Below, piece after piece: positions 9,301 to 64,000 of a stretch of 64,000 bases of DNA. Below the pieces are notes generated by a model, which worked only from the letters and a program-made list of their open reading frames with translations, was not told the DNA's origin and ran no database searches. The position numbers were made by a program, and so were the translations under genes. The stretch is from Ceratodon purpureus (lineage: Eukaryota; Streptophyta; Bryopsida; Pseudoditrichales; Ditrichaceae). The stretch's first letter is position 1. The number at the start of each line of letters is the position of its first letter. Where the stretch lies: contig CM026421.1 in NCBI GenBank assembly GCA_014871385.1, positions 16,227,048 through 16,291,047 of the forward strand. Direction: 5' to 3'.

Positions 9301-10880
9301 ATCTCATCCCGAATCACAAGATTGTATAGTACAATCCGTACACCAACCCTTTGCATCCAGCTCTCAATCTTTTTCTCTAGAAATTTCGAAATACATCTAC
9401 AATTCTCTCCTAGATCGTTTTTGAGAACTCTCCGAACAGAACCAACGGAATTGGTAGATTTGTCCTATGCCTCATCAGTGACATCATCACACTGCCAAAG
9501 CAAGCGACCCTCTACAAACAACCACGTACAGTGTAGGCTCGCAGTCATGACGGCTCAGAATCTGTGAAGGTATGAAGACCCTCTTCCATTCCCAAAATTC
9601 AAGACTCCCAGAACAGTAATCGAACGTCACCACAGACTCCAAAACTGGGAGATCATCACAATACCATCACAATACCATACTGTAAACAAATCTCCACATT
9701 TCCTCAACCGTTTACCGATTCTACTCCCATCGCCTGTACAGAGCTCAATACTCTCACATGGCCTGACCCATTTTTATCAACAGAGTATGCGAAATTGCAG
9801 CAAATATATAATCTCTGGAGCGTCACTGTGTACTTCCACGACCATGGCCCGGGCCGCCATAGCCTGCGAAGCGTGGGGCCAGGTTATGCAACTGAGGGTA
9901 TTGAAAACCGAGCGCATGTACACTTGGCTATCACATGAAGATTGTACTTCCCGTTGCCCGCGCTCAAACAAGTGGCACATGCATACAGTGACCATCCTCG
10001 TCCCCGTTGCTTCAATTCACATCTCCTGCTTCGTCAAATCGCCCTCTTGCTCATATTGCTTTACATCTTCAATGCTTCGTTGCTTTCATCTGCGGACAGG
10101 GTTTCATTTGTCTGTGTAATACTCTTGAGGTAATTATGTGAGTGCTGGTGGTAGAGTTGGTTGAGAGGTTTTGGTAAAGTCCGTTGGATTGTCTCGTTTG
10201 GGTTTTATGGATTAGTTTCTGATTTAGAGTTCGTGTTCTGGAAACTGCTTGTGGGATCACAGTTGGGAAATACGTATCGAGGCTAAGATTCTTTGAATGC
10301 TTGGCACTTGTTCGGATTGTCTTAGGCTCTGACTCTCTAGATCCTCTAGAGTCTGAGTCTAGTGTGGTGTTCTGGTTGTTTTATTTGGTATTCGCATGCT
10401 TCAGTGAGGATTTCACTTCATTTCGGTATACCAGGGCAATGTCGTACCATGCTCCTTGTATGCCTGGTTGACAGTTTTCTCTTGTTGATAGGACTAGAAT
10501 CTTACAAGTCATGGGTTGCTGAGCTAAATTGCAGTGGAACGTGGACGATATCAGCTGTAGCTGTGTACACTGCTGAATTGAAGGTTGAAGGTTTTGGACG
10601 GTGAACTGCGAGATCTGAGGTACAATTGACTCCTCCGTGATTGAATATTCATGTTGGAACAAGTCACAAGTAAGATTTTAATCGAATGTATTGGGAAGAC
10701 TCTCATTCAGAAAAAAATCTTAAATATTAATTTCTGTTGTATCAGTTACAGGGCTCCAGTGTAAATGCCATCTAGGCTGGTGATCACCACCTGTCTACAA
10801 TCTACTCCAGAACTTTTAGTCTTAATGTCAAATACTCACATTCTGTATAATGTAAAGTTTGAAGGAAAAGAGAAGAAGAA
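9301..10880. other. upstream region of the small membrane protein gene
   Basis: Composition is near genic, but no frame has recognisable content. It may hold the promoter and a spliced 5' UTR of the gene starting at 10881; pyrimidine-rich tracts precede AG at several points near 10745. Frames such as 9787-10119 and 10362-10604 look fortuitous. Confidence 0.4.
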
Positions 10881-11406
10881 ATGGATCCACAGAACGCTCC
10901 TGGTCAGTCAAGGATTGGAATTGAGGGACGTGGAGGGACTACAATTCCCGGAAACATGGCTTCCCGAAGCACCTTCCGGTACATCTTTGTGGGAGGCATG
11001 GTTGCCGCTGGTAATTCTCTCCCTGCTTGCCCTATCTGCACTGCTTTCTTTTCCTGGCATATCTTATCTCTACTTGAATGAAAAATAACCGATCAACATA
11101 ATCCTACAGCTTTCTATCGCATTTCGGCATTTCCTTAGCATTATTGCAGGTCATTGACAAGGCATGTCATGAACGGTTTTGTTGCCTTGTTCCATCTGTG
11201 CAGGTATTGCTTGGTATGCCTCCGCTCATGGTTACCTAGGCTCAGCGGGTGACAAACTGAACCAAGTAAGCAGGGGTGGATCTAAGCCACCTGCTGGAAC
11301 GGACAAAGTGGACAACGCTGCTTCGGCAACTGAGGGCACTTCTCCAACAGGCCAAGCTCATTCTGGAATGGCGCAAGGAGCCTCGGAGGGGAAGAAGATG
11401 AAGTAA
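10881..11406 (+). CDS. small single-pass membrane protein, unknown function
   Basis: Two exons, 10881-11010 and 11204-11406, join in phase 1 within a glycine codon to give 110 aa. The N-terminus (MDPQNAPGQSRIGIEGRGG) is hydrophilic. Residues about 30-60 form one hydrophobic segment (FRYIFVGGMVAAG, then IAWYASAHGYLG) that runs across the splice junction. The C-terminal half is a low-complexity tail rich in Gly, Ser, Ala and Thr that ends GKKMK. The donor (GCTG then GTAATT) and acceptor (TGTGCAG) are canonical, and the membrane segment is only complete after splicing, which supports the model. I do not recognise the family; it could be a small organelle or endomembrane protein. Confidence 0.75.
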
Positions 11407-12591
11407 ATATATATGCATTTCATTCTAGTGTGTGTTTTTCTAGCTGTGAGAAGGCTTGTAATTGATACTAGATTGTGTAGAGGAATCCGAAATGCCTCTT
11501 GAGATGGCAAGGATGTGTAGGTCATATTATTGTAGTAGTAGTAGTAATAAAAGTAAGCCAATATTTCTTCCAGTACTTAAAATTGGATGTCCATGGTGGG
11601 AAAAATCAATCAACAAGATTTCCATCTATGCTGGATTGTACAAACTTTAGCTCGCAATAGCCGACGCAAACACAAATATTGGAAGATCCAATCTTCAAGA
11701 AATAATCCACTCTTACCACACACGAAAGCATGGGAGTGAAGCCAGCAAACCAAGCATCTCGGTGACTATCAGAAGTGCCTGTTTTCCTGCACATGGGCGT
11801 CCAATTCGTGCACCCCGCCCAGTACCTCGGTCCACCACTGCCTGTCATTTGATTTGCCAATTTTCTGGTTATCATAGCTCCTCATCAACTCCGTTCGATA
11901 TTTAAGTCCAGTGAATATGGAAACTTCACTTTCTGGACTTCAGTTTACAGTCTTGTTTGAGCCCCGTGTGCCAGCAAAACTCTGTGCCTCGACTGTCATG
12001 TTATAATCTGCAAGAAGGCTGCGTGATGATTCCGTTCAGTGGCAGTTATTGCCACAAGCGTTCTTAGCACATCATAGTGAACCCTTAAACGTCCAGGGGA
12101 ACCCCTCGGGTCACCTTTTTAGTGTATTTTCCACACTGCTGGACGTTTAATGGGCTGTGTGCAGTGAGAGACGTTGTTCCCTTTGCGGTTACGACAATCA
12201 GTTTCAGGCTTCTCAAGATGGTACCCATATCTATCGTCACCGGCAAACACGTCTTCAGTCGTTTGAATATCCATAGTGAAAGCTTCGTTATCATGTATCA
12301 GATGTGCAATGGGATAAAAATATATACCTCGTGTGAGTTCTTTATGTTATTAATATAGGATGAAGATTTCAATGGAAGTCATATCGATCCTCACGATCAT
12401 CAATCCCATATGTGGCCTTCAAACGGTTGCTCAATGCTCCGAAGAGAACATGACCATGAATTAATTGCGAAATGAGCGACGAGAGACAGTTTGTCATGGA
12501 TTATGACATGACAATATGCTAGTCATGGAAGGAACCTGCAGACTTTTGAAAAAAACATATAACAAGTGAGCAGCAGGAAATATAAAGCATC
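11407..12591. other. 3' UTR and intergenic sequence
   Basis: The first 250 bp follow the stop of the small membrane protein and include T-rich and TAG-repeat sequence consistent with a 3' UTR. The rest shows no recognisable gene on either strand. Confidence 0.45.
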
Positions 12592-13441
12592 ATGAGTAAT
12601 CCAGAGTCGTCACCAGTGGTATCGCTGGGGGGGAAAACAGGGGTCACAATTTCAGCTCCTGCAAGCAGACTGGCCACTCCCCCGGCACTTCTTCCATCTG
12701 CACCCCAGCCATGGAGCACCAGCATCTTCGCTTGCTACAAAGACATCGGTAGCTGTAAGCATTCACATCACATGCACCCCAGATTGACTTTGCTTCCCAA
12801 GCTCACACATTACATAATACATTTACCCACGGACAAGATCATGGCATCAATCACATGTCTCCTTCCATGCGGGGGATTGATTTCACAAAATGGGTGCAGG
12901 TTGTTGGACCATGTTCTGCCCGGCAGCAACGTTTGGCACGCTTGCCAACGCCCTCGACAACAAGAAAGGTTTGCCCAGAACCTACTTCTGAGACCTAACT
13001 TTTCTTTAAGAAAATCTTGAGAGATGGTGGTTATGCTTTGGGTGGTGAATCATGGTCACACCCTAAAAAGGTTTTCGTGAATGGCAAGGCCTATATTCTG
13101 TGGACAGGCGCTGACAAGAACAATGATGATCTGGGTCATGTGTGGGAATTAGCGAAGGAACCAAAGCAAATTGCTGCACTTATTTCCTGAGGCAGTTCTG
13201 CTGTGCAACCGCTAGTCTCTCATCCAAGTACCGCGCCCGAATCAGGGAGAAGTATAATCTCATGGAGAAGCCGTTGTCCGACTTTGCCACCCATTGCTTT
13301 CTCCCACAATGCGCCCTTTGCCAGGAGTATCGTGAGCTCAAAAGATTTAAAGTCGAGCTTGGTGAATGCCCATCTCTACCAGCAATCAATCACTACTTGC
13401 TTCACCACATTGTTGCGAATTTGGCAAACCAATCACTGTAG
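12592..13441 (+). CDS. PLAC8 / cell-number-regulator type cysteine-rich protein
   Basis: Three exons (12592-12754, 12900-12968, 13158-13441) give 171 aa. After a Pro/Ala-rich N-terminus the protein reads WSTSIFACYKDIGSCCW, then FCPAATFGTLANALD, then KYRARIREKYNL, then CALCQEYRELK. These are the successive signatures of the PLAC8 (DUF614) domain, including the terminal CALCQEYREL block. Family members are small plasma-membrane proteins linked to metal tolerance and organ size. The second family cysteine in the CPC motif is replaced here (CPAA). The usual Arg-Gly and Gly-Trp tail after the CALCQEYREL block is absent. Splice phases fit exactly (1 then 1). The long frames on other strands are shadows. 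A recent pseudogene cannot be excluded, because the tail is atypical. Confidence 0.7.
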
Positions 13442-14547
13442 AATCACGTTTTTGGGAATTGTGGTGTGCAGGGAGTAAAGCTCCGCCTTCACAATCTATG
13501 AAGAAATGAAGTTTAAGACACCAGTTGTTGTTCAAAAGTGTTACGCGAGCCTTGCACGAGTCTACCGTAGCTGAAGATGGGTCCATTGTGTGGCTCACCA
13601 CTAAACCTGGTGGTCCTCTGATCTCTTCTGCTGGACCTTCAACGTCTTCTGGGCTTCGACCAGTTACAAGATAATAATATGGTAGACCTCTAATTCTCTG
13701 CCGTCTCATATCCACATCATCATCATGCTGAGTACAATCGACTTCGCTAGTCATGGATTGAAGATGTTGCTGCTACCCTCTAGAGGCTACTGAACTCAAT
13801 CCGGGAATCGATATGAGAAAGGTGAGATGATGATGCCCATATCATGCGTACTAATACAAATTGACTTAAATCAACAACTGGCAAAGTAGGACTTTGGCCT
13901 GGTTCACTTTAGGTTCACCAGGTTGCACAGACATGGTTTGTATGTTTTCGCTGATCACATTTGCACCAGAATACGGCTTAGACTATAGGTAGTAGGCTTA
14001 AGACTGCCTTTACATCGAATATCAAGCCGTTGAGACACTCTTTCAAGTTCTGACAATATGGATCTCAAAATGACATATCCTGACCTTGTAACAAGAGATG
14101 ATACACATTGTTGAAAATTAATATTTACATGTAAGAAACTTCAGAACTGCCACAGAAACCAGATGGATAATATCCATCTTAAGCGGACGAGATATGGTCA
14201 AGTCTGTGAAGTGAAAGCACTTTCCAAATCCGAATGACACTCAGAAGAACTATTCTAGAACGAAGCACCTCAGCTGTTATGTGGTAAGTTATAACATGTA
14301 TAGTATGTCCTAGTGTAAACAAAGGTTTGATGTCACGTGACACTCACCCTCAGTACTGAATCATGAGGTGCTCGTCCTTGGAACAAACGAGTACCTACTT
14401 GGTACACCAGCTTTGTGACCTTGTCAATCATGACCACGTTAGAAACTTCTACAGCTCAATCACAAACTTCGGTACACCATCAATGTTGACTTATTCTATA
14501 ATTCTTCAAAGAAAATTGAATGATTGAAGCGTGAATAGGCTCCTCTG
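13442..14547. other. intergenic, between convergent PLAC8 and ethylene receptor genes
   Basis: It should hold both 3' UTRs. The minus-strand frame at 13386-13754 overlaps the PLAC8 3' end and has no recognisable domain. I saw no repeat structure. Confidence 0.45.
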
Positions 14548-17500
14548 TTAGGAATCACCTTCTCTGTGGTTATTGCTGTTCAGCTCTCTCTTTGGGGGCA
14601 TCAGTAGTTGAGGTGCAGGGGAGTCTTCACGGGAGTCTTCGGATGTGTCTTTGCTTGATCCACCTTCATCCACAGTCTCACTCCTTGGTTGAGGCGCAAT
14701 GTCGTACCTAGACATTTGATTGCTTGATCCAGCTTCATCTGTGTAATTACTTGCTAATTGAGATGGAGTGTCGAACTCATCATGAAAATTGACTTCTTCA
14801 TGAAAGTCCACTAATTTAGCCAATTCAGATTTCAAAAGTTCCAAATTGATAGGCTTCATCAGGACGTAATCCATGCCCACTTCGAAACATCGCTGTCGAG
14901 TTTTTGTGTCAGAGTTGGCAGTAAGTGCGGAGATGACAGGCCTTTTTGTCCTCCCAAACTTTCTAATTATCTCGGTTGCAACCGCGAACCCATCCATCTA
15001 CAAGAATTAGGCTTTGCTCAGTATCCCCGACGTAACGACCAAGACTTTGAAGTGAAAGCTTAAGTGACACAAAGTCTCCGTGATTACAAGTATTGTGTTC
15101 CACCTCCCATGATTAAAAGTATTGTGTAACAGAGAATGTTATACACCTCCCGTGCAGTGTGAACTTCTCGCATTAATTTCTTGTCAAGCAGGTCATCTGA
15201 GGCTCACGACATGCCTTTCCGGATAGAACATCGTTACTTGCTACCTATGTTAAGCATTCATTTGAGTGAATCCTCTGGTTGGTAGAAAGAGTATTCTGTG
15301 TTAACACATGAAAGAATAGCTCACCTCAGGCATGCAAAGATCCAAAAGGATGACTTGGAACTCGGAGGGTCCTTTCTCAGTAAGGATGTCCAAGCACTTC
15401 TGACCAGAATCCAACACTGTTGACTTACATCCAATAGTGTCGAGCAGCCGCCGGGTAACAATTCGATTGATCGGGTTGTCGTCCACAACCATGACCTTCG
15501 ACAAACATGAGGAGAAGCAAATCAATGAGCATATACATTCGGATACAGAATGGCTTAACCAGAGGAAGATAAGAAAAAAATCAATTAACAGGGGTGTTCT
15601 ACGATATGGCATGAAAATATATTTGTTCGCAGTTAAGGAGATAAACTATTATGCACTGCAGCAGAGGTTTGTGAAGTCAGAGAAGAAAAGTAAACCTTTA
15701 AGTCCTTCAACTCGGATGGAGTCGCCTGCTCCAATCGAGGGCTGTTACGTTTTGGCTTCGCGCTCTCAGGAATGCCAATAGAAATATACATTTTGCATGT
15801 TGTTCCCTTTCCTAGTCCCTCACTCTCCAGCCATACTTTCCCACCCATCAACTGCAGTAGCACTTATAACTTTGCGTCAGAAATCGATACTTATGAAAAT
15901 GGCACACATGCTATTTGTTATCTTGTGAAGTAGAACATGATTGATAACCTCCAGTTCAGCTATTTAGACTGTCAAAGCATAAAGTGAGACGTTGAAGGGT
16001 TTGCAAGGAAAGTACAAGATGAATGTTTTGGAATAAATATTACCTCCACAAATTTTCTGGAGATGGCAAGACCCAAGCCCGTGCCTCCGAAGTTTCGAGT
16101 AGTGCTACTATCAGCTTGGACAAACTTATTGAATAAACGTGGCACATCCACGGCTTTGATGCCAATACCAGAGTCTATTATGTCAACATGCAAGTAGCGG
16201 TGTTCCAACACTCTCCTGGGAGTCAGTGGCTGGTCACTTTTCTGGGTGACACTCATGGAAGGAGCCTTGTCTCCCATGTGTACCGAAACGCGTACTTCTC
16301 CTTCCAGAGTAAACTTGATTGCATTCCCAATCTGTAAGATTCAAACCCGTGCAACTCAGAATAAGTTGCTTATTTTAAAGCCGACATTTTACACATTGTA
16401 GTGTCAAATATGTTTTTAATTCGAATTTGCAGGGACAAACAATAACCATCAGAGTTATTCTGTTAACGAGAGGCCTCACCACATTAAGCATGACTTGTAA
16501 AATGCGGTTGCTGTCTCCCAAGACACTCTCTGGAAGGTCTGGCGGCAAGGACATGACCAAGGAGATTCTCTTCGAAGTGGCCAATGGGCGAACTATGTTT
16601 TCCACCTCCCGTAGAAGGTTGGGGAGTTGGAAAAGGCCAATATCTAAAGCGAGTCCACCTGTTTCAAGCCTGGAGAAATCAAGAATGTCATTGATCAACG
16701 AAGAAAGAAGGCCACTGCTCTTACTCATAGTTTCTATCATGGCCCGTTGGTCGCTGTCAAGCTCAGTTCTCAAGAGAATAGAAGTGAGAGCTATGAGGGA
16801 ATGCATAGGCGTCCGCATCTCATGATTCATTACAGCGAGGAAGTCATTACGAGCAGCCACTGCTTCCTCTGCTTCCATCCTTGCAATTTGAAGAGCCAAA
16901 TTCTGAGAAAGCAGCTGGTCCCGTGATTTTATTGACTCCTCCAGTACTGTTGCATGGGAAAGTGCAACGGCAACCTGAATCACGACATAAAGATAATGAT
17001 TTTCAGGCAATACTGTTACATTCAGAGAATTTTGGTGCACTCCTTGAGCGATGCTAAGAGAAACTTCCCTATCAAGGAAATCAAGTTACACATGGCAAAT
17101 CCAACTCGCTCCAAAAATCCTACGTACCCATCACTTAAGAAGGTCTTCAACTCACAATCGGAACTCAAAAGAACTGCAGATATTTGGAAAGAACAGAAAT
17201 CATTAGAGTTATCTGGCGTCCCACACATCGACAATATTGCAGACCGGAGCCGTTTGCAAATAAAATTCCTAATTCCTCATACTATTCAGGAGTTGGATCT
17301 GCAGCAATAACCTGGCCTGCAATCGCTGTGACCACATCCAATTCATCGTCAAGCCATTTTCTCTCTGGATCACAAGGTAAGATAAGAACTAGCAAGGCAT
17401 AAGAGGACGATGCTGCATCAATTTGACCATTCGCAAGATCACCATTCGCAAGATCCAAATCTTTGGTCTCTTTAAAGTTTGAAGTACTCATATATGGAAG

Positions 17501-22106: not shown

Positions 22107-25100
22107 ATGGCGATGGCCGTCACTTCTTCTGCTCATAGACTCGTCGCCGCTGCGTCTCTCGCGCTCTCCTCGTCGTCCTCTGCCTCCGCCCAGCAGCCCC
22201 GCCGTGCGCTCCTCATGGCCGCCTCCCGAAGCTCCCACGTCGGAGGCGCGCGGGACCTCCTCTCCGCCAAGCAGCGCATCTCGTCGTCGTCCTCTGCCAA
22301 GGCCGCGGCGCCCCGCGCCTCCGCCTCGGGCACCGTCAATGCGTCGCCCTCCGCCGCCGTGTCGCCCTCTGCGTCCAGCCAGGGCGCCACTAGCCAGGGT
22401 GCGACACAACTCCCACCTGCCTGAATTCTCCTTCTCCAGTTGTGGGTTTGGGTTTCCGATGGGCTTAGTCTGGAGATGACATTCCCTTGCATTGGGAGCC
22501 GGAGTTTTATGACTTGAAGCGCCGTTTGCTGTGATGAATTCACTCTGTGTGTGTTTGTGTGCATGTGTTTTCGATGGTGCATTGGTTTTTCTTTCCTTGT
22601 TTTGTCATACTTTTGATTAGTTTTTGGTTTTTTGTTTCATGGCAGGAGTGAAGCAGGCACTCATTTCGCTTTCTGACAAGCGCAACCTTGAATTGCTTGC
22701 CAAGGGGCTGGGCGACCTCGGGTGAGCTTGCTTTTGGGACAGTGGGTTTGCGCATTTGGACAATGGGATGGAATTTCCAGGAGTGGGAAAGTTTTCTAGT
22801 TGGGAAGGTGATTGGTGTTTGTAGCTTGGGGGTGAATTGCAGAGAGTGATGTTTAGTTTTTATGTTTCGTGCAGATACAAATTGGTGTCTACAGGTGGGA
22901 CTGCTACAGCTCTTGAGAAGGCAGGGTATTCTGTTACAAGGGTTGAAGAGCTAACTTCGTTTCCGGAAATGGTAAGCATCTCTGACGGGTTTTTCCCTTC
23001 CTAGCTAATTGCACAGTGTTTGGCAAGTTAGGTTCTCGTTCAACCTGGACTAGTCCTCGCCTTACAGCATTCAATATGGTTCTAGATGCTTCGGGGCTTG
23101 GTAGAAATCGCTCTTCTAGGGGAAGCCTGTATTGCGCAGGAACCCACGGCAATTAGTCGCTTCTATCGTCGCGGGTGTTTTGTTTCTGGAATAGGTTAAG
23201 CGGTTTGAGATCAGCATTTTAAGTATGTAGCTAAGAGCATGACATCTTGAACTCATTCTTGTTGATTATGTTTGCTTCCATTAGCTCGATGGGCGTGTGA
23301 AGACATTGCACCCGGCAGTTCATGGCGGTATTTTGGCAAGGCGAGACATGCAGCCTCACATGGACGCACTCCAGCAACATGGAATTGGTATGCTTTTTGT
23401 CAGCTTGTAGTAAACATAGATTTTCATAGCCCTCTTTCGTTGAGGATGGAGTTGCGGTTCTGCACTGAAAGTTTCTACTTCTACGCCTCAGGGCTTTTTC
23501 CCATTGCAGTAAGTTCTGGAACGTGGGATTGCTTTGTTAACCTTTCGTGCGTTGTTTATTTTTTCTATTTTTTCAGGAACCATCGATGTGGTGGTCGTGA
23601 ACCTGTACCCTTTTTACAGCACTGTGACATCCTCAAATGTAGATTTCGAGACAGGGGTGGAGAACATTGACATTGGAGGACCATCTATGATCAGAGCTGC
23701 GGCGAAGGTATGGTAGTTCTTGTGTATTGGAGCATATCGTGATTGAGTCCACAAGCGTGCCACATCTGTCGACTTACTTGATTTCCAGTTCTTTTTTGTA
23801 TCTGAACCCGTCGAACTCTTAGCTGTAACATTTGTTCATGTTTTCGATCACTCTGTTACCCTTGATAGTCGAAACAATCTCTTTGGTCTCTAGAAGTAGT
23901 GTTTTTGATGAGGCCATGATGACACTTTTTTCCCGAATACGAGGTATTGTGCCGTTGAGATGAGTTTAATAGTTCTGAGCCTCTTTGGATCATATTGACC
24001 ACATTAAATTTTGGTAATTTCTTTGCGTGATATTTTAAGTATTTACTCAAAGATGAAACAGTTTGTAGAGGAAAATTCATATTGTGTTTGGGCTGTGTTT
24101 ATTGGTTTCACGGTTCTTGAAGCAGTTTCTAGCTGTTTGAATTATATTGCAATTTGTGAGGCGTTTTCAGTCCTTCTTACTTATAATAGTTCAGAACTAA
24201 GAAGCGTACGCGGATTGGTTTTACAGAACCATAAGGATGTGATGGTGGTAGTGGATCCCGACGACTATTCAGAGGTTTTAGCAAAGTTGCAGAGCGGTGA
24301 TGATGGTGACAATAGCTTCCGGAGAAGATTGGCGTGGAAAGCTTTCCAGCACGCCTCATCCTATGATTCAGCTGTGGCCGAGTGGTTGTGGAAGCATCAG
24401 CGAGATGGTGGTATGATTATTGGTTCTCACCTTCGCTAAGTTGTTAGTCATGACGTGAAGTTAGAAGTTATCTTAACGCTTTGATAGTAACATTATTGTC
24501 ATTGCCCGATCCGAAGTTCACATGTAGGGTAGAAGCGAAGCATACACTCTGTTGCTGGTCTTTCATCCTTCGTATTCAAGGGTTTTGTTGGCAATCTTCA
24601 GAGGAAACGACGGACTTCCCACCAAGTTTGACAGTACCTCTGACTCTTAAATCCAAGTTGAGGTACGGTGAAAACCCACATCAGAGGGCTGCTTTCTATG
24701 AAGACAAATCATTGTGTGAATTTGGAGCAGGAGGCATTGCCACCGCAGTGCAATACCATGGCAAGGTGCGTACCTCAGAAGTTGGTCTGCTTTCATTATC
24801 TTTGATTATACACTGGAACTTTGCAAAATTATTTCAGCCGGTGCTGTTGAGAATTAGGTTTTGTGAATAGGGAATTCTAAAACATTCGTGATCTGCAGGA
24901 AATGTCGTACAACAACTATTTGGATGCCGATGCTGCCTGGAATTGTGTATGCGAGTTCAACAATCCCACATGTGTGGTGGTGAAGCACACGAATCCCTGT
25001 GGGGTTGCCTCTGTTGGACCAAACCAAGGTCTTCTGGAAGCTTATCGTCTTGCAGTGAGGGCTGATCCTGTCAGTGCATTTGGAGGCATTGTCGCTTTCA

Positions 25101-26071
25101 ACGTGGAAGTAGATGAGGTAAGAAGTTTTTGTGATAAGTATCCTAATGCTCGGCTGCTCGCTTTCGTGACTGTGGTTTCCGATTTTATGGCTGTTAACTT
25201 TTGTTGCGTCCCCGTCACCAAATACCTTGTGTGTTTTTGTAGACCCTTGCACGGGAGATTCGGGAGTTCCGAAGTCCTACGGATAATGAAACTCGGATGT
25301 TTTATGAAATTGTCGTGGCTCCTAGCTACACAGAGAAGGGGTTGGAGATATTGAAGGGAAAATCAAAAACTCTGCGTATTCTCAAGGCTGAGCATACTAA
25401 GAAGGGTCGACGATCGTTGCGACAAATTGGGGGTGGTTGGTTGCTCCAGGACTCTGATGACAAGACACCTGAGGACCTTGGATTCAGAGTTGTAACAAGC
25501 AAGGTGCCAACCTTGGAGCTTGTGGATGACGCACAATTTGCTTGGCTGTGCTGCAAGCATGTCAAGAGCAACGCCATTGTTGTGGCAAAGGTATGTCTAA
25601 TTCAGTTTTGACCCCGTTTCATGATATCTGCTATTTCTAGCAACAATGATGTAACGTTAAAATTAGCGGCAATATCAGGACTCTTCATTACTTGCTGCAC
25701 TGATCATCATTATCTCGTTTGTTGTAACTGCATCATATTGACGTCATGAAGCCTTCTAATCGATACTCACGTTGACGTCGAATCATTTTCAGGATAACCG
25801 GATGTTGGGGATGGGAAGCGGTCAGCCAAACCGAGTCAAGAGTCTGCATATCGCGTTAGAGAAAGCCGGAGAAGAAGCCAAAGGAGCTGCTCTAGCCAGT
25901 GACGCATTCTTCCCATTCGCCTGGAATGACGCTGTGGAAGACGCTTGCAAGGCAGGTGTGAAGGTCATTGCTCAGCCTGGTGGCAGCATGCGTGACCAGG
26001 ATGCTATCGACTGCTGCAACAAGTATGGAGTGTCTATGCTTTTTACTGAAGTGCGTCACTTCCGGCATTGA
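22107..26071 (+). CDS. ATIC: bifunctional purine biosynthesis enzyme (AICAR transformylase / IMP cyclohydrolase)
   Basis: Ten exons: 22107-22398, 22646-22721, 22875-22971, 23285-23387, 23577-23707, 24227-24410, 24602-24765, 24899-25117, 25243-25590 and 25793-26071, giving 630 aa. The first ~95 residues are rich in Ser and Ala with almost no acidic residues, as in a plastid transit peptide, fitting the plastid location of plant purine synthesis. Residues ~97-290 form the IMP cyclohydrolase (MGS-like) domain: [42 protein letters not shown] and [14 protein letters not shown]. The rest is the AICAR transformylase domain, with LRYGENPHQ, the catalytic KHTNPCGVA and [10 protein letters not shown], ending TEVRHFRH. 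The enzyme carries out the last two steps to IMP, using 10-formyl-THF. No key residue appears missing. The first in-frame ATG after the GA tract was taken as the start; ATG at 22113 is an alternative. Confidence 0.96.
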
Positions 26072-54421: not shown

Positions 54422-54836
54422 GGAATATATACGGGCTTCCGATCATCCGTAAGTCGTGCGCTTCAAGGCTGGCGATGGAGTTGGGGGGCTTTCGCTCTGC
54501 AACTGGCACTTCGCATCTCGTACCACGGAATCAGGAGAAGTCGGATGAATGCTATGAGCTTTTGAATGAATATCCGCCGCTTCATCAAGTTTTTGGATGA
54601 TATGATGGTGAGTTTTCGGATGGATGGGGTCCGGAGAAGGCGTGAGTAGCTTACTTGTTCACCACCGGGAAGCCCACCTGGAAGCACGTCATTTGGATGC
54701 GATTCGGAGTTTTGGTTTTAGTGCTCTTGTGGAAGCTTCTTCTTGTCGCTCATAGTTTAATCCCGATCGGATGGATTCCGATCTGTGCTTCTGGAATGGC
54801 CGAGGGAGGCTATGACATGAGCGGTGAGCGATGAGC

Positions 54837-54864
54837 CATGAGCCATGAGCGCTCATGGCTCATG
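54837..54864. repeat. perfect 28-bp palindrome upstream of the GST gene
   Basis: CATGAGCCATGAGC is followed directly by its exact reverse complement, with the centre between 54850 and 54851. It is preceded by further ATGAGC-type steps from about 54817 and followed by AT-rich DNA. It lies about 420 bp upstream of the GST start codon and 380 bp from the end of the transposase gene, so it could belong to a promoter or to a transposon edge. Confidence 0.9.
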
Positions 54865-55247
54865 TAATTTTTCTTATTTTAGTAATTTCCATGTTTTTTT
54901 ACCAGATGTAAACTGTCGAGGACAACGAATGAAATATTTATCATTCATGACTTTCGTCTGCGAATGGATGATAAATGTAGGGAAACAGAAAGTGAAACTA
55001 AGTAAAATGAGTAAGGGACAAAATGTAAACGGATCAATTAATATGAAATTAGGAAAGAAGTAGAGGGTGCTTATTTAATTGGCACAAATCCAATCAAAAC
55101 CAAGCAATGCAAATTGCCGATATATACTGGAATGCTAAAAGAAAGTAATCAAAGTACTCTACTTGAACATCCAGAGCTATAGTATTCTATAGCTTAATAG
55201 TGCAACCTTCTTAAAATATCTAACGGAAACCGCCAAAGCTGAGAATC
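54865..55247. other. left flank of the transposase gene
   Basis: This is AT-rich sequence containing the transposase 3' UTR and probably the left edge of the transposon. I found no copy of the GTTCKGTRMCGAAC motif here and could not identify a terminal inverted repeat. Confidence 0.4.
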
Positions 55248-58200
55248 CTAAGTGTAAGCATACCAATCAGCTTTATCTGTCAACATACGGACTTCATTGA
55301 ACGTCCAAGCAGGGCGATGGATGAACTTATCCTCCACGGTACAATCCATGAACTTCTGAAGGCAGAAATAAAGGTGCTTGCACAGAATCCATTTCTTCTG
55401 GCCACGGCCGAGGGCACTAGTCTTCATTGTGATGAAGTCAAGACAAGTGCATGATGGGAAATCACCAATAGTGACTTCGTATAGCTGGTTCTTGGCGATA
55501 GATCCAGGAGTATGGACAGTGAAAACGTATCCATAACCTGGATGAGGGACCTTTTTCGCCTTCAGTAAAGAACACTCGATTGTCTTGGACCTGTTAAATT
55601 TCGCAGTATGCTCAGCTGATGGCTCCGCAACATTCTTGAATTTCTTACCCTCTCGCGTAGTGGGCCTATAATCCCCAGATGACTTAGGGGGCCTTGGAAC
55701 ATGGTTGACATCGGTCTCTGAATAAACTGGATCACTCCATTTGAAGCGATCAACTGAGGGTCCTCCACGCATTGTCGATGGATGACCTTCAACTGTAAAA
55801 GCGTTGGTCTCATCGACGTGGCTTACAAATCCCTCATCTAGCTTAAAACCAGCAGATTCAAAACTGTCTATCTCAATCTGAGTCAGATTAGTACCTGACA
55901 TGACTGGCCAGATATCTGGAACATCGGCATAATGCATGATGTATTTGGAACGCCCACCCATCACACATGCCTGAAGGTTAGTGGGACAAAACCAGAACTG
56001 CTTCTGTTCCGTGTCAGTGGATTTAAACTTCCTCTGAATTCCGGTGAAAGTTGGAGCAGCAGTGGGTCGCCTGTACTTGGCAATGCGAGCGTTGCACCTC
56101 TTGCCATCACCATTGTAACCCCTACACTGATCCTTGCATTCAGGCGAAATACGCTCAATGCGCCATTCCAGAGGATTAGTACAAGGGGACTCCCGGATTG
56201 GCAAGTTGTTTCGAGTTACCACAGGTACAACCGGTGGTACAATATCCGATTCCAGTTCGGATGACTTCGGAGATCGCTTCAAGCTACGCGTCGCCCCTGG
56301 TGTTGACTTCTTTCCCAATTTTGGAATTGAGAAATTGACCCGATCATGGCGATGGGAGTCATCGTCATCGCCAGGAGGAAGGTCTAACTTACGCTTGGCT
56401 GACCCAAAAATACTCTCGCCCTCCAGGTGCGGAACTCGTGAATTCAAACCAGCATCAACAGAGATCTGTCCAACGATCTGAGCGATTTTTACTGGGTTAC
56501 CATTCCGCGTCGCTGCACGCAACTTCAGCACATTCCTACAAGGCCCTGATCCTCCAAGGTGCCCCTTCAAGAAGTTGTGGAATTGAGTGGATTGCAAAGC
56601 AGCTCTGCAATAATCGTCGAGCGTGGCGTCATAGAGGTCAACCATATTGTTGCCTGATGCTTGCAGCCACTTGTTGTGCACAGTCTCCGACAAATTACAC
56701 GTAGGCATGGATGCTTCTTCTTCAAGAGAGAGAAACTGCGTGAAAAACAATATCGGAAGACAAAAAAGTTGTTAGACTTAAGCAAGTAAACAAACCTCTA
56801 GTACATGATACCAAATGCATATTTAAGAATCCCAGAAATGGACAAATCCACATTCTAAGAAACTAACAACAATCAGCTTCGACAATGTAGTTCTGTAAAG
56901 AACAGCCTATAGCCAGTCAATTGATATCAAACGAAACTACTTAGATGATACTTTTTAGATGAAGCAGAACTCAAATCAGCACTGATTAAGTCGTTCTGTA
57001 CAGATCAGCGTAGACCATGCTAAATGTCAAAATATATAAAAATGGTCAATAATATTCGGAAATTATTATTCCTCCTTTCAATCATGGGCAGATGAGGCAT
57101 TCTGTAAAGAACTGCTACCATCAAGCTAATTTACCAAAAAGTAAAATTTCAACTAATATTCATTTCAACTCTTAAACTACTACTGTGCCGAACGACGAAA
57201 ATTAGGGCAAGGACAAAGGGCGTTCGGTACCGAACCATGAAAATTAGGGCATGGACAAAGGTCGTTCGGTACCGAACGGGTCAAATTAGGGCAAGAGAAA
57301 TGGGCATTCTGTAACGAACGACACATTTTAGGTCATACAAAACAGAAACAATAAGTTAAATAATAAAGGTATTATGGTTATTTACCTCAGAGACGTGAGA
57401 TCCCCATTGGTGGAATCTGAAATGCCAAAAGTGAATCCAGTCACATAGCTCCTTCAACGATCCTTCGGCAACTGCGCCTGACGAAAACCACCACGCCTTG
57501 ATGGAGGCCAAAGCTGCATCTGCGTCTGTCTTCGATCTTGACTTCCGGTACTCATGACAAAGCTTCAGATGAACTTGTTGGAGTTCTGGTTTGATAAGCT
57601 GTTTCGTGTGACGGTCGAGAGCCATCGACCAATGAAACTGGCACGTTCGTTCCTTCCCCTCCATCTTGTCTTTCGGGTTCCCGGTTCCGAATATGGTTCG
57701 AACAGCATTGAAGTTTGCTTGGGCAGAATCTGCCATAAACCCTTTGAAATTGACGTTAGTAACGCCATGCTGCTCGAGCGTATTCAACATGGATAACCAC
57801 ATCCTCTCCTGAGCTTCAGCAGATTCCGACTGCATATCGCAAACAGCGATGGTCATAACCTTGCGGTAGTCTGGATCATAAACGTGGATGCCAAGTGTCG
57901 ACCACTCCTTCACTCGTTTGACGTGGTCGAACATCACCCATTCGTTCTCCAAGTCCCCTCCTGGTTGCATCCTCTTTACGAGGTCAACTCCGCTTCCAAC
58001 TCCGCAAGTTGACATCTTAAATAGGTACACCAGGTCTTTGCCTTGTCCAGGGAAAACGCTGTCGTGGATGTAGTCATAAGTCGATGACTTCTTCAACTTC
58101 AAGATGTTGTCAATGTATCCCCCTTGACCACAGAAACTCCTAGCCTCGGCAATCATATTCCGAATGCTAGGAGTGCTAAGCTTTGCCCACTTATCGAAAA

Positions 58201-59851
58201 CCTGCTTCAATTCATCCTCCGTTAACTTTTTACCTTCACGACTCTCATCCACAAGGCCCTTCAAAAGCAACTCTCGACCAACAGCCATTCCTATGGCACT
58301 AACCTTGGCATTCGGTGTACGGGACACCTGATTCAAGATTTCATCTCGAATCATATCTAATGCCTCCCTACACTCTACAGTCGCAACCGGGTGGTTATGG
58401 TTGCCAAAATGCACGGCGGCTCTCGACATCGCAGGGTTCTTAGAAACAATATAATACATCTTACAGGAGCACAATTTCAAACAAGATGGAGCAGTCTTGC
58501 AGAAACGACAAAGAAGAGACCATTTTTTAGGCATTTTTGGGTTAGGGCCTGGCGTAAGAACCTCTGGAGTCGACCCTTCCCAATAAAGGTCGTTATAATC
58601 TCCTGTCCGTTCAATGTGAGGGCATGTCTCATTCAAACACCGCAAATGTCCAAGACACTTCACATACTTGAATGATAACTGAGACTTAGGGTCAGAAATA
58701 TTCGTCGTCGCTGTCTCAGTCCAAGCATGACCGTCACTTCTACGATCCATACCATCCAACAATCCAGCTCCTCCCTCTTTGACCGCAGGTAAATTGGGTA
58801 ATTCAAAAATTACATTCCCATCAAACTTGACAGGAAGATACTTCACCTTGTGATGTGAAAACGAAGAGAGATCGGCTGACTTCAATTCACTCTTTGACAT
58901 CCGCTGATTCCCAAGTGCTACTATGGAATCATAGATGCTGACGAATGCCGAGAGTGAGGTCTCTGACAGCACAGCAGACGTGGAGCTTGTCTGATGACAA
59001 TCGGTGACAGGTGTCGCAGCCACCGAGTTGGATCTCTCCGAATCAGGAGAAATACTGTTAGTGTAATCTGTAGAGGCAGATTCCGGAGTAGCAGGAAATC
59101 CACTCATATCGACACCACCATCGCCCGAAACTGGAGGACTCCGACCAATAGAGGGGGTATTCGGAATAGCGCCCTCCGTAGAAACCGAATGAGTCATGTT
59201 TGTTGAAGGAGTCTCACTTCCAGCGCAGTCCTTCGAATCAGATCGCCCTGTGTCCGATGATGGAGTTTCGGATACAAGTGACTTAGACAATGTGTCTGCA
59301 CTCACAAAGGAGTCATCATTGATACTATCCGAAGATAAAGATGTCCAACTCTTCTCACTGTCGCCAATCTCTTTCTTCACTCTCCCCTCTTTTAAAGAAG
59401 ATGGGGCTCCAGATGCATCCTCTTCATCGTCAGAACTGACAATATGAATTGAATTCTCAGGAGTTTCTATCACTGAAGGCAATTTATAATAATGTGGAGT
59501 GCGCCTAGTACGACCTAGACAGGAGCGAGGAGTCAGAGTCGAAGACTGTGAATTGTCATAGGCCTGATAACCACCAATGATGGTATAAGAACCTGCACAG
59601 ACTCTATATATGGTCCTGCCATTGACAAGTTCAGGCTTCTGATACACAGTTCGAACCACAGATCCGGCACTATCAAAATCTTCCTTTTCAACAATCAATG
59701 ATCGCTCCTGCAATTGAAATCTAAGACACAGCATTCTCTCATCAACAACAACAAATCCATCATCGTCAACATGGAGTACGAAGGGAACAGACGAAGGTAC
59801 AAGACGGAAAGAAACAACAGAAGAAGCCATTGTGATACTATGATTGATCAA
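55248..59851 (-). mobile_element. Mutator-like (MULE) transposase gene, apparently intact
   Basis: Two minus-strand exons (57386-59851 and 55248-56735) join in phase 0 across a 650-bp intron and give about 1,317 aa; MASSVV at 59830 is an alternative start. Residues ~1-140 are an uncharacterised domain. Residues ~140-330 are very rich in Ser and Thr. A cysteine/histidine cluster of WRKY-GCM1 or FLYWCH style follows at ~398-548 (CLGHLRCLNETCPH, CRFCKTAPSC, GNHNHP). The catalytic core has Asp near 660-672 (YDPDYRKVMTIAVCDMQSES), Asp at ~708 (FMADSAQANFNAVRTIFG), CQFHW, and Glu in MPTCNLSETVHNKWLQASGN just after the splice junction. A SWIM zinc finger (CTCLDF, CKHLYF) lies at ~1253-1277. There are no stops or frameshifts, so it may be active or recently active. 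Domestication is the alternative. The motif arrays in its intron and upstream point to a mobile element. Confidence 0.88.
57180..57345. repeat. 42-bp tandem repeat inside the transposase intron
   Basis: Four units start near 57180, 57222, 57264 and 57306. Each carries the palindrome GTTCGGTACCGAAC, or a variant of it, followed by an AAATTAGGGCAAGGACAAAG-type spacer. The two central copies are perfect palindromes. The outer ones are diverged (GTGCCGAAC, ATTCTGTAACGAAC). Three looser copies lie further along in the same intron at 56890, 56993 and 57099. Confidence 0.92.
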
Positions 59852-60679
59852 CTTTGGAGATGGTTCTCTCCAATATGTAGTCGAAGGAACTCACTCATAT
59901 TTAGAGGCTGAATGGGAATGCCAGATGGAAACAACTGTGAAGATCTCAAATTGGTGGGGGTTGGTAGGAGGCGGCTAGAAGTCCACACTTAGAAGATGCT
60001 ACTGCCTTTGCAAAAGCGGGTGCTGAAGAGGCGTTCGGTACAGAATGCCAATTTTTGGAATGAGAAGCCATGAGACAAAGTGGCCACTAACTGGTCGTTC
60101 TGCACAGAATGGGGTAGGGGACCTTAATTTTTCTGGCCTACTCGAATCCGGCCAAGGATCGTGAAATAGCAAATACAAGTTTAGTATTAAGATTACGGCT
60201 TATACTTATTCATAAATAGTAACATGCAAGCACACGTATTCCGATGTAAAAATTTACATTCATGGTGTATGTTAAATTTAGGAAATACATTTATTACTCT
60301 GGAAAAGGTTAGCAACGCTAATTGCATGTTTTCATGTTAAGGAAACTGTAGTACAAATATAAACAGCCTGGTATCTTTATAAATGAAGTAAGTCAAATGG
60401 CCTGACTTGTTAAAGTGCCAAGCCGCCTTCAACAAGTTATGTTTAGCCTTACATTCAAGAGTCAGTAATCACGTTTTTATTTTAGTACTAATGAGGAGAT
60501 CGTGTTTCTGAAATAAACTTTAATTTGAAACTCATATGTTATTCTCAGTTGAGGTAGCTGTAGAAATAATGCCTTGCTAATCTATATTTTGGGCTAAGTC
60601 ATAGTAGGCAACTTACATAAGGGGCATAGAGGTTCCGCATTCATCAAACCAAGATGAGTGTGTTAGTGGTTTCTAAGAC
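59852..60679. promoter_or_regulatory. transposase upstream region with two palindromic motif copies
   Basis: This is the 5' flank of the minus-strand transposase. GTTCGGTACAGAAT lies at 60033-60046 and GTTCTGCACAGAAT at 60097-60110, 64 bp apart and about 200-260 bp upstream of the start codon. The rest is AT-rich and has no recognised gene. A role in transposase or transcription-factor binding is inferred from position only. Confidence 0.5.
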
Positions 60680-61285
60680 ATGGTCGAGACGAGAGCGGTT
60701 AGAAGAGCGAAGGCATTGTTAGAAGGTATAGGAGAGGGCTCGACAAATATTGCTTTGAGACGTGAGGGAGATCTAGAGTGCTACACACGTACTTATAGAA
60801 GGCGCAAGGTGCAATCGATTCCTCATACTCAAGAACAGGTGAGTACTTGTTCGACATAGATACTGATTTATGGTATGTTGTTCACAGTCTTTGAGCTTGT
60901 CAGTGAACTGTGTTTCATTTCAAACCTGTTATTCACCTATTCTATGTCATCGTTCAGATTCATCACAAAAGCTATGGCTATATTTTATGTTGCCGTTTTC
61001 GTGGAGATGTCAATCGAGGCTATAATTCTTATAGTGATAGCAACGATTACGGTCGGACTATTTAGTAGAAATCGCCGATTCCCTTTTCAATCTACTGAAG
61101 ACCGTACTCACAATGGAGTTGATAGTCATGAAACTGAGTCAGCAAGTGAAAGTGGCAGTATCGATTCGAGGAGTGATGGTAACCAGATACCTTTAAATGA
61201 AGAGGCACACCATTTGTGGTGTGAGTTTTATGAAGCCATGGGAGACGAGGCATACGACAATCTCAGAAATCACATAGAGAAATGA
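60680..61285 (+). CDS. small gene of unknown function beside the transposase
   Basis: An open exon (60680-60838) encodes a basic peptide, MVETRAVRRAKALLEGIGEG onward to IPHTQEQ, and ends at a strong CAG-GTGAGT donor. Downstream, 60875-61285 is open for 136 codons. That frame includes a hydrophobic segment (IFYVAVFVEMSIEAIILIVI) and then an acidic, Ser-rich tail ending EEAHHLWCEFYEAMGDEAYD and NLRNHIEK. No acceptor joins the first exon to that frame with a normal intron length. An acceptor at 60957 instead opens IHHKSYGYILCCRFRGDVNR and then stops. So either these are two separate products or the intron structure is more complex. I recognise no family. The location suggests a transposon accessory gene. 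Confidence 0.4.
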
Positions 61286-61873
61286 TCGACCTATTGCTCA
61301 CAGTTCGCAATTTCCAGGTAATCTAGAGATAAGGTGTCAGGAATTTGATGTAGTCGTCAAGTGGGATGAACAGCTTTCGTTAGTTAGGGTGTAACCGAAG
61401 TAATTATACGACTCTATGCCTGAGTGTAGTACTTCTCATTTAGTTGATCTCATCGAATTTCAAATGGTGGGGACCACTCAGGAGCTTAAGAATCTGTTAA
61501 ATTCTTTGAAGGCATGTTACATTGTGTTGGAGTGCTCATTTGTTCTGCTAGGAAGATGTTGAAATATTATAAACATTAGGCCGAACATATTTACACTACT
61601 ACTAGGTCTACTCCGGTATTAGATAAGAATAGTGTAGTATCGAAGGACTGACTTGTATTTTCAGTTTCATTAAAATAAATATTTCAAATTCAACCGTCTT
61701 GTCTGGTTAACCAATGAGAGAACTGGTCATAGGATCCCTTTATTATTGTGTGGAACAGCGCTGTTCTGTGCCGAATGAGGATCTTAGATCTGATTTATAG
61801 GACCACCGATTCGGATGAACGGATATCATTCAATAAAAGCTTCATCCTATGGGGAAGGGCATCCTAGTATATA

Positions 61874-61943
61874 ATGGCTAGGAAATATGGAGCACTCCTC
61901 TTTCTGTTTCAGTTCCTTGCGTGCGTGAGCTTTCAAGTCCAGG
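61874..61943 (+). CDS. possible first exon with a signal peptide
   Basis: The ATG at 61874 opens MARKYGALLFLFQFLACVSF then QVQ, a textbook signal peptide. It is followed directly by a strong AG-GGTGAGT donor, with the exon ending at 61943 in phase 1. No second exon could be fixed within the following 2 kb, which carries the palindromic motif array. The first exon of a secreted or membrane protein whose body lies further right is plausible. A chance frame is possible at this length. Confidence 0.35.
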
Positions 61944-63824
61944 GTGAGTACTTCTACTCTAGTGCATTTCAAGTGATGAAGATCTGGCCTGCCATCTCTG
62001 TATTTATGTTTTCTTGAAATCGGATGCCGTCTAACGCCCTTGATATGTTGAACTAGGCCGAATGTGTTATTTGAACTATGTAGTCTTCACACTGGTTGAG
62101 ACGAATATTGTTGGATTCTTGCTTGATGTGAAATGAGTCTGATTATTGGATCTGTACGACTGTAATGGGTTTTAGAGTTCTTAGGGGTTATGATGAGTCC
62201 GAGTTGGTTTTCATATGATTGGTGGATTACATGATGGTTCTTAGGTGGTTGCCGAATAGACGATTTGGCTTAGACCTATGGACAGTTTGCACAAATTTCA
62301 AAATGTAATCAGTGATGTGTTAGTGGGTTTAGTATTTGCAATGTAATGTGGCTGTGATTGATATACATATTATAATCGAGTTCTCTGAGTAAGTGCCAGA
62401 TTATGTAAAATTGGAAAATGAGGCTGTTGAACTTGTATTAGTTTCGATCCTGCCGTTCTGTGACGAACGACTTAGATTAGCAATATATGATGTTCTTTGT
62501 AAACCACAGATTGCATCGAGTTTTCATTAGATTGATCTTGAGTGTGCGTGTACAGTACATATCAGCGATGTCATGTCCGATTCTAGCACCATGTCTATGT
62601 TCTTATGTCGCTTGTGGTCGGTTATATTAGAGTACTAATGGGCGTTCTGTGACGAACACATTAAGTTGCTTAATTCGATTGAGTACAAAGATATTGTTCA
62701 TCAGGTACATCGATGATGCATTCTGCTTTATGTAATAGTAGATGCTGTTACATGCTTTATTGATTATGTTTATAATGCTTAATATGGAGCTCGTTACGTA
62801 GTGTTATCATTGATATTGTCCTGGTTGATCGATAATCAATTCGTTCATAAAGAGTAGTTCTGTGACGAACATGCCAAACTAGCACAAACAGCCTTGTCTT
62901 CTTGATTTACTGTTTCACTTTTTAGCATTGACTGAAAGTAACTGTTATATACATATCTGGTGCATCATTTTTAATTCGTATACTTTAGCTGAGTAAGTTT
63001 ATTGTTTTAATTGCGTTAGTTTGAAAATGTATTAGTTAGGGGTTGATCGTTCGGTGACGAACATGTCTATTACATTGACATGGCACTCCAGAATGTAACG
63101 GTCCATGATCAGTTTGTTTTAATTTGAAATGAACTCTAATTAACAAAGTTTTAGTGTTCTGCACAGATCACCCATACATGGGCCGATTTGAACTCATTGA
63201 TAAATAACTTAGTTAGTTTAGCTTTTGAGTATATCATCAAGAATTGGAATAGGCTTACCTGTTCTGTAACGAACACCACCAAGTGGCATGATTTGGTAGA
63301 TAATTAGATTCGACTCTGAACTACTTGATGTGAATTTAGAGTGTTCATAACTTGTAAAAAAAAGAGTGTTCGGTACAGATCACTACTTACTCAGTCAATT
63401 TAAAATTCTTTGATTTCATAATTATTTGAAATTACTTTCAAATATGATGGGTAATTGGCGTTCGGTGACGAACACCCTTAGGAGGCAGATTCTCAATGGA
63501 CTTAAGAGTTAAATATGTTCATTTGGATAATGAATGACATGTATTCATATTGCCATTTATACTTTGTTTTGTACAGTTCTCACATACCTACTTCATATAT
63601 TACTCATTTTGTTCATGTTATTGGACCTTTTAGTGATTATTTACATTATAATTAGCCAAATTGTTCAAAATGAGTCTTCGAATCAGCAATTTCCAAGATA
63701 GAATTACCGAGACCAATATCGTTCTGTACCGAACACCAGTTTATGTTGCGATGTTTTCTCATCAGCCGTTTTTATGGTGTTCGGTTTCAAACTCTGTTGC
63801 TGATATATTAAACTATTATTGCAG

Positions 63825-63953
63825 GTACAGAGTGCGATGGCAACAGAAGGAAGTAACGATGTGGAGTGGGCGCCCTCTCCCTCACAAGGTCGGGAGAATG
63901 CTAACTTCTATATGCCTAATAATTTATGCTTTTCTGACCTAATGACTTTCTGA
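63825..63953 (+). CDS. possible short exon within the motif array
   Basis: After a TTATTATTGCAG acceptor the frame reads VQSAMATEGSNDVEWAPSPS then QGRENANFYM to a stop at 63951. The ATG at 63837 is in frame. The peptide is hydrophilic and has balanced composition. It does not join in phase to the signal-peptide exon at 61874-61943. A donor-like GT in CACAAGGTCGGG at about 63889 could continue it out of the window. No family was recognised. Confidence 0.25.
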   Translation, partial: VQSAMATEGSNDVEWAPSPSQGRENANFYMPNNLCFSDLMTF

Positions 63954-64000
63954 CTATTGCATGTTCTGTGACGAACGGTTCTAAACCTCTCAATTTGTTT

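Follow-up and report, generated by a model that had tools for sequence, protein, structure and literature searches.

What is the function of a short palindromic motif that recurs near the end of a 64,000-bp stretch of the genome of the moss Ceratodon purpureus (the window, C1:16,227,048-16,291,047; C1 and C2 are contigs of the same assembly)? A first-pass annotation suggested a self-recognition system carried by a Mutator-like element (MULE), of the kind formed by Arabidopsis VANDAL transposons and their VANC proteins, with a different motif and a dimeric reader. We find that the motif belongs to a 27-kb transposon, that it is under selection in the non-coding DNA of this element, and that among the genomic matches listed it is exclusive to copies and remnants of one family. 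We consider the chances about even that its copies are parS-like self-recognition sites of a giant MULE-like transposon, read by a protein of the element, most likely a fusion of a ParB-like domain and a DNA methylase.

The annotation had reported at least 18 sites between 56.9 and 64 kb, and this is the number that we recover with its consensus, GTTCKGTRMCGAAC, which matches the window 10 times exactly, 13 times with at most one mismatch and 18 times with at most two, all of the latter within 56,890-63,976. Its remark that the motif is not seen in the first 56 kb holds at up to two mismatches, but not at up to three, when 6 of 27 sites fall before 56 kb. The symmetric form, GTTCKGYRCMGAAC, has 3, 17, 20 and 23 sites at up to 0, 1, 2 and 3 mismatches in positions 54,802-64,000, the part of the window that lies in the element, compared to means of 0, 0.01, 0.25 and 2.3 in 100 dinucleotide shuffles; these counts rule out a chance origin. 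Outside the element (positions 1-54,801), the corresponding numbers are 0, 0, 1 and 16. In unbiased counts of 10-mers, words from the motif rank first in five of the six copies of the element that we analysed, while the sixth (E237) is topped by a nested tandem array. Together the six copies hold 98 exact sites and 164 sites with at most one mismatch, or 23-34 per copy (18 in the partly covered copy E862).

The element itself was delimited by comparing copies with blastn and locating their ends. The window's copy, W16, is a 27,249-bp transposon at C1:16,281,849-16,309,097, of which window positions 54,802-64,000 (plus strand) hold the left part. It therefore runs 18 kb past the window, and what the annotation had called the right-hand 2 kb is the 5′ region of the ParB-methylase gene. 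A 10-bp target-site duplication read by eye, TGGAATGGCC, precedes the left end (54,792-54,801) and recurs directly after the right end (from C1:16,309,098), and a 43-bp terminal inverted repeat at 54,809-54,851 (plus strand) is 86% identical to its right-hand partner by blastn of both ends. Duplications at other copies, also read by eye, are GGGTGTGATC and GCTCATACAG (10 bp) and GTGTTGCCC (9 bp); the length is 10 bp in W16, E237 and E199 and 9 bp in E818, in each case within the MULE range of 8-11 bp given in a section of PMC6446971. We defined the family from seven genomic regions of the 362-Mb, 151-contig assembly. The other complete copies measure 26,787 bp (E818), 28,262 bp (E199) and 44,665 bp (E237, C1:23,738,526-23,783,190, whose length is partly due to a nested insertion); the sequence of E239 and E862 is partial. 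From the copy comparisons we grouped W16, E818 and E237 as subfamily A and E199, E239 and E862 as subfamily B. Synonymous divergence (dS) between W16 and E818 ranges from 0.03 in transposase exon 2 to 0.6 in a third gene, gene R; a spread this wide within a single pair suggests that copies have recombined or undergone gene conversion.

The sites avoid coding sequence. Of the 20 window sites with at most two mismatches to GTTCKGYRCMGAAC, seven lie in the 650-bp transposase intron (56,736-57,385, minus strand, splice sites by eye; sites at 56890, 56993, 57099, 57180, 57222, 57264 and 57306), which contains a 42-bp tandem repeat; two, 64 bp apart, lie in the transposase 5′ flank (60033 and 60097, spanning 60,033-60,110), the same pair being present in E818 and E237; and 11 lie at 61.8-64.0 kb. 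The last group comprises a single site found by the symmetric-consensus scan (61,763-61,776, plus strand) and the main cluster 5′ of the ParB-methylase gene (62,455-63,976, plus strand; 62455, 62644, 62857, 63049, 63156, 63261, 63368, 63460, 63721 and 63963). None lies in an exon, in agreement with the placement first described. Similarly, none of the 164 sites in the six copies is coding, with 52,883 of 173,164 bp counted as coding because they match W16 exons, and five flanks of copies (16.8 kb) contain no site. The sites reside in the transposase intron, the intergenic region between the head-to-head transposase and ParB-methylase genes, the introns of the latter, and the sequence 3′ of gene R. 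Four copies are complete at both ends; in these, the outermost 2.0 kb on the left and 3.5 kb on the right contain no site at up to one mismatch.

Genome-wide, the original pattern is matched 379 times in forward and 387 times in reverse orientation (a palindromic place counts twice), while a reversed control pattern has 8 and 14. All 100 matches listed, which represent 91 distinct places and cover C1 completely and the first 8.64 Mb of C2, are within 20 kb of a transposase or gene R of type A or B, or 94 of 100 if decayed or partial loci at 15.54 and 25.04 Mb are excluded. They form nine clusters at copies or remnants of the family, and each of the seven transposase loci in this range has a cluster.

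If the motif matters to the element, sites should be retained as their surroundings diverge, and this is what we observe. Among aligned sites in subfamily A, 92.9% (W16-E818), 93.6% (W16-E237) and 94.5% (E818-E237) of columns are identical, compared to 76%, 71% and 81% in the 20 bp around the sites. The equivalent figures in subfamily B are 89.7% (E199-E239), 94.5% (E239-E862) and 83.5% (E199-E862) for sites, and 71%, 75% and 61% for their surroundings. These figures describe the alignable sites, which in the same order number 26 of 30, 19 of 30 and 13 of 34 in A and 16 of 26, 13 of 23 and 13 of 26 in B; the counterpart is still a motif in 23 of 26, 16 of 19 and 10 of 13 cases in A and in 14 of 16, 12 of 13 and 8 of 13 in B. 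The excess persists beyond 5.1 kb, the more divergent part of the element, in four copy pairs. Between A and B, no site is alignable (0 of 30 and 0 of 34 in two pairs), and both subfamilies keep sites in the transposase intron, the head-to-head region, the ParB-methylase introns and near gene R. The motif is under selection, since aligned sites are 84-95% identical and their flanks 61-81%; conservation of the sites over their flanks also rules out an origin purely in tandem arrays. As far as these data reach, neither of the two conditions that the annotation named as refuting its idea is observed: the motif is not equally common away from the family, and the other copies do not lack it.

The sites are symmetric beyond the positions by which they were found. 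With positions 5, 7, 8 and 10 left free and at most one mismatch elsewhere, we collected 171 sites (98 in A and 73 in B, sites in the nested element excluded), and symmetry is kept at positions outside the search pattern. The centre is a pyrimidine-purine (YR) step in 166 of the 171, and because Y and R predominate at the outer positions, the full site is about 16 bp, YGTTCKGYRCMGAACR; 20 of the 171 are perfect 14-bp palindromes. Half-sites are shifted between subfamilies, with G/G half pairs in 39 of 98 A sites and 1 of 73 B sites. A centre of YR without a fixed base would suit a dimer dependent on a flexible step and not on contact with a base, and the CG, TG, CA and TA centres could be the series expected from deamination of methylated CpG. 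The palindrome of 14-16 bp fits both the different motif and the dimeric reader that had been suggested. Because the centre varies as YR, we set aside a methylase with the 14-mer as its substrate. The forms GTTCGGTACCGAAC, GTTCGGTGCCGAAC, GTTCTGTGCCGAAC and GTTCTGTACAGAAC were not found in open-licence literature texts.

Which protein might read these sites? The candidate that we favor is encoded head-to-head with the transposase, in six exons at element positions 9,647-15,697, the first of them about 450 bp past the window end. The introns are GT-AG, and splicing yields one continuous frame of 1,003 residues; three alternative joinings vary at the first junction by a few residues, and the start codon is uncertain. 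The N-terminal part has the fold of the ParB N-domain and falls within the ParB-CTPase fold, and the C-terminal part matches the N6/N4 methylase profile PF01555 above its curated cut-off (29.0 versus 26.7 bits; 27.8 bits in the spliced protein). The ratio of non-synonymous to synonymous divergence (dN/dS) is 0.03-0.17 for the transposase and ParB-methylase exons where computable; all such ratios compare W16 with E818 and E237, as dS is saturated against subfamily B.

Bacterial ParB, Noc and KorB bind palindromic sites (parS, NBS and OB, respectively) of 13-16 bp. Bacterial ParB binds palindromes and slides, and ParB-fold fusions to N6_N4 methylases are known from phages; by this analogy we infer how the element's reader might load, spread and affect silencing. 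An element-encoded dimeric protein would bind the palindromes and so tell its own copies from host DNA. The most likely reader, the fusion of about 1,000 residues, would load at them as ParB does at parS and spread along the element, which would explain action over the whole of it, and would mark or unmask the element, either by local base methylation or by a non-catalytic block to host silencing, possibly with gene R as a partner. The moss system resembles the bacterial ones in its ParB-CTPase fold and palindromic sites, but differs in belonging to a nuclear eukaryotic transposon, in its many dispersed sites and its methylase fusion, and in that a helix-turn-helix was not found. A fuller version of the proposal is distinctly more tentative: an NTP-dependent ParB-type clamp, loaded at dozens of parS-like palindromes, would carry the fused methylase along the 27 kb, writing a mark other than 5-methylcytosine (4mC or 6mA) or laying down a protein coat that exempts the copies from silencing, and co-evolution of sites and clamp would keep sister subfamilies separate.

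A second giant element bears on the identity of the reader. This 15.8-kb element, N, is a distant relative that lies within the transposase exon of E237 (approximately C1:23,743,110-23,758,955) and is bounded by 62-bp inverted repeats and a duplication of at least 10 bp, its boundary ambiguous up to 13. Its transposase is 32-40% identical and its ParB-like sequence 43%; together with methylase-like sequences, these keep the head-to-head order of the larger element, and no match to gene R was found in N. Between its two genes, a GC-rich array of 17 units of 117 bp carries the palindrome core TTCGGTGCCGAA in every unit, so that the core is kept 17 times in front of N's ParB-methylase gene; simulated sequence has 4 cores in 6 Mb, an expectation of 7.8e-5 per unit. 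Because N keeps the core without a gene R match, it favors the ParB-methylase, or the transposase, over gene R as reader, on the basis of a single event. No dispersed motif of N's own emerged outside the array, where no 5+5 palindrome reached four copies and the leading 9- and 10-mers resemble the terminal repeats of N.

Several observations weigh against reading by the ParB-methylase. A helix-turn-helix was not identified in the ParB-like protein, in which fold matches cover residues 70-238 only; Foldseek gave no PDB match at E ≤ 0.001, and the ParB models of Pfam and NCBIfam did not match either. Sulfiredoxin and serine kinases have the same fold and do not bind DNA. The catalytic motifs of N6/N4 methylases are [DNS]PP[YFW] and FxGxG, and the six copies have DL[SN]ASTGAS as motif I and D[QT]PF as motif IV, with DIPE in N; methylase catalysis is doubtful because these motifs are unusual in all six copies, and the methylase may be inactive. 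The core is absent from N outside the array (0 in 13.9 kb), making the link to N a single event. Finally, presence of the motif also goes with gene R, as at locus L042 (C1:25,034,000-25,043,999), which has gene R and sites, with transposase and ParB domain undetected in the 10 kb examined. At L042, gene R stands beside a B-type right end, and a pair of motif sites is repeated in inverted orientation 5.6 kb apart.

Gene R could be the reader, acting as a dimer in a VANC-like role with the ParB-methylase independent of it, a reading that we consider unlikely but deserving of weight. The gene (minus strand, element 24,324-25,484) encodes 387 amino acids, with a conserved N-terminal domain without known match, a coiled coil of about 150 residues and a C-terminal C4HC3 zinc finger whose pattern, read from the sequences, is conserved. 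Its A/B type or remains of it occur at each of the nine motif clusters listed, including L042 and the decayed L045. The predicted structure has long helices (pLDDT 75, pTM 0.50) that, with the coiled-coil profile matches, would suit a dimer on a palindrome. The gene changes faster than the transposase and the ParB-methylase (dN/dS 0.24-0.27), as a co-evolving reader might. Furthermore, none of three C-type loci on C1 (37-39% identical) has an original-pattern site within 25 kb, which is what joint change of motif and reader would predict. On the other side, N lacks a gene R match yet has the palindrome core 17 times, and no DNA-binding fold was recognised, though the N-terminal domain was barely tested. 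Foldseek returned nothing at E ≤ 0.001, the hits being coiled coils and some RING fingers, and a PDB sequence search with protein alignment A3 yielded 155 hits, all weak (the best at E 0.017), of which those listed are mostly coiled coils. The genome contains 111 matches to gene R, which group at about 70-78%, 45-51% and 33-39% identity, some of them lying in between. The third class (33-39%) is found genome-wide, for example at C1:2,698,634, C7:754,893, C9:41,854 and C4:6,310, and its three loci on C1 may carry a different motif.

That the sites serve a host transcription factor driving expression of the element, with no self-recognition, is improbable. The densest cluster does lie between two divergent genes, where promoters are expected; however, sites also occur in introns and 3′ of gene R, at 23-34 per copy, the matches listed are confined to the family when sites of a host factor would be expected near host genes too, and the half-sites are shifted between subfamilies.

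We regard as somewhat more improbable still that the sites bind the transposase or act as replication or iteron-like sites, for transposition or an extrachromosomal stage. Spacings of neighbouring sites are suggestive of whole helix turns, as in iteron arrays, with a best period of 10.5 bp (R 0.43, jitter p 0.0024, 31 de-duplicated spacings). The phasing is weak, however: W16 alone is not significant (p 0.10), and with at most one mismatch (n 25) the 10.5-bp period has R 0.48 and p 0.0023 but 5.7 bp scores higher. Nor is there a site near either end in the four complete copies, which rules out end-binding sites for the transposase and makes this protein an unlikely reader of the motif. That the motif is a functionless by-product of tandem duplication and copy homogenisation is hardly credible, for although some sites lie in tandem repeats or at equal spacings of 42, 63, 74 and 117 bp, and the uneven divergence (dS 0.03-0.6) indicates that copies may recombine, the sites are conserved when the 20 bp on either side are not, and symmetry is kept at positions unused in the search.

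The transposase is probably MULE-like. Exon 1 (57,386-59,851, minus strand) is an open reading frame (ORF) with an uncertain start codon and dN/dS of 0.10-0.12. Exon 2 (55,248-56,735, minus strand, dN/dS 0.03-0.11, splice site by eye) is likewise an ORF and bears a SWIM-type CxC...CxH signature recognised by eye, while the SWIM profile is below cut-off (E 0.65). A search of the moss genome gave at least 84 matches, many without stops. The MULE Pfam profile had no match in nine relatives of exon 1, a PDB sequence search with protein alignment A1 gave 0 matches, and a scan of viral contigs with the transposase gave 24 pattern matches, none confirmed. The longest ENA contig listed for relatives of the transposase and for those of the ParB-like protein (P0003 and P0014) has the identical length of 275,659 bp in both cases, so the two genes are probably linked in another assembly as well. 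A small ORF at 60,875-61,285 (plus strand, 136 amino acids, with a hydrophobic stretch) is weakly constrained (dN/dS 0.43-0.58).

How does this system compare with VANDAL and its VANC proteins? As described in portions of PMC5735166, both are MULE-type and have a short motif that is concentrated in the introns, intergenic regions and other non-coding DNA of a single family and does not reach such density elsewhere, with variants that differ by subfamily and accumulation through tandem repeats. Indeed, the moss motif is family-limited and non-coding (0 of 164 sites coding, 100 of 100 matches listed in the family) and subfamily-specific (G/G half pairs in 39/98 versus 1/73). The VANC21 motif, YAGTATTAY, is 9 bp long and arrayed in one orientation (PMC5735166, in part), and passages of PMC5735166 and PMC10398659 indicate that a high density of such a motif in non-coding DNA can confer specificity on a whole element; the moss element would act in the same way if our inference holds. 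The moss element differs in its 14-16 bp palindrome, its 27-kb length, its ParB-methylase, and in that DUF1985 and DUF287 were not found: Pfam scans of ORFs and gene models, which include some of the short exons, gave no match to these or to another VANC domain. We therefore reject membership in VANDAL, given that VANC domains were not found in the proteins scanned and the 27-kb element has other genes; the interpretation first suggested is partly supported.

Two other groups of elements are comparable. A survey that includes eukaryotes places fusions of the ParB-CTPase fold to N6_N4 methylases in phages and prophages, in the portion of PMC12704722 considered here, and its text has 0 occurrences of 'plant', 'transpos-' or 'moss'; the same domain pair is thus on mobile elements in both cases, but the moss fusion is spliced, is carried by a plant transposon and is accompanied by a dispersed motif. 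Like the giant eukaryotic transposons covered in sections of PMC6431247, the moss element is a very large DNA transposon with extra genes; Pack-MULEs are described there as at most 7 kb, and a 27-kb MULE-like autonomous family is not among the elements those sections describe. Among the titles and abstracts listed from the open-licence literature, none concerned such a moss element.

To our knowledge, sequence-specific self-recognition of a transposon via a dispersed motif is known from VANDAL and VANC only. If our proposal is true, the moss family would be a second such case, with a palindromic motif and a ParB-fold/methylase fusion as candidate reader, and would suggest that such systems arise repeatedly. 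It would also offer a testable route for the reuse of a bacterial partition module in the plant nucleus, and a compact pair of motif and protein for targeting chromatin changes to chosen DNA.

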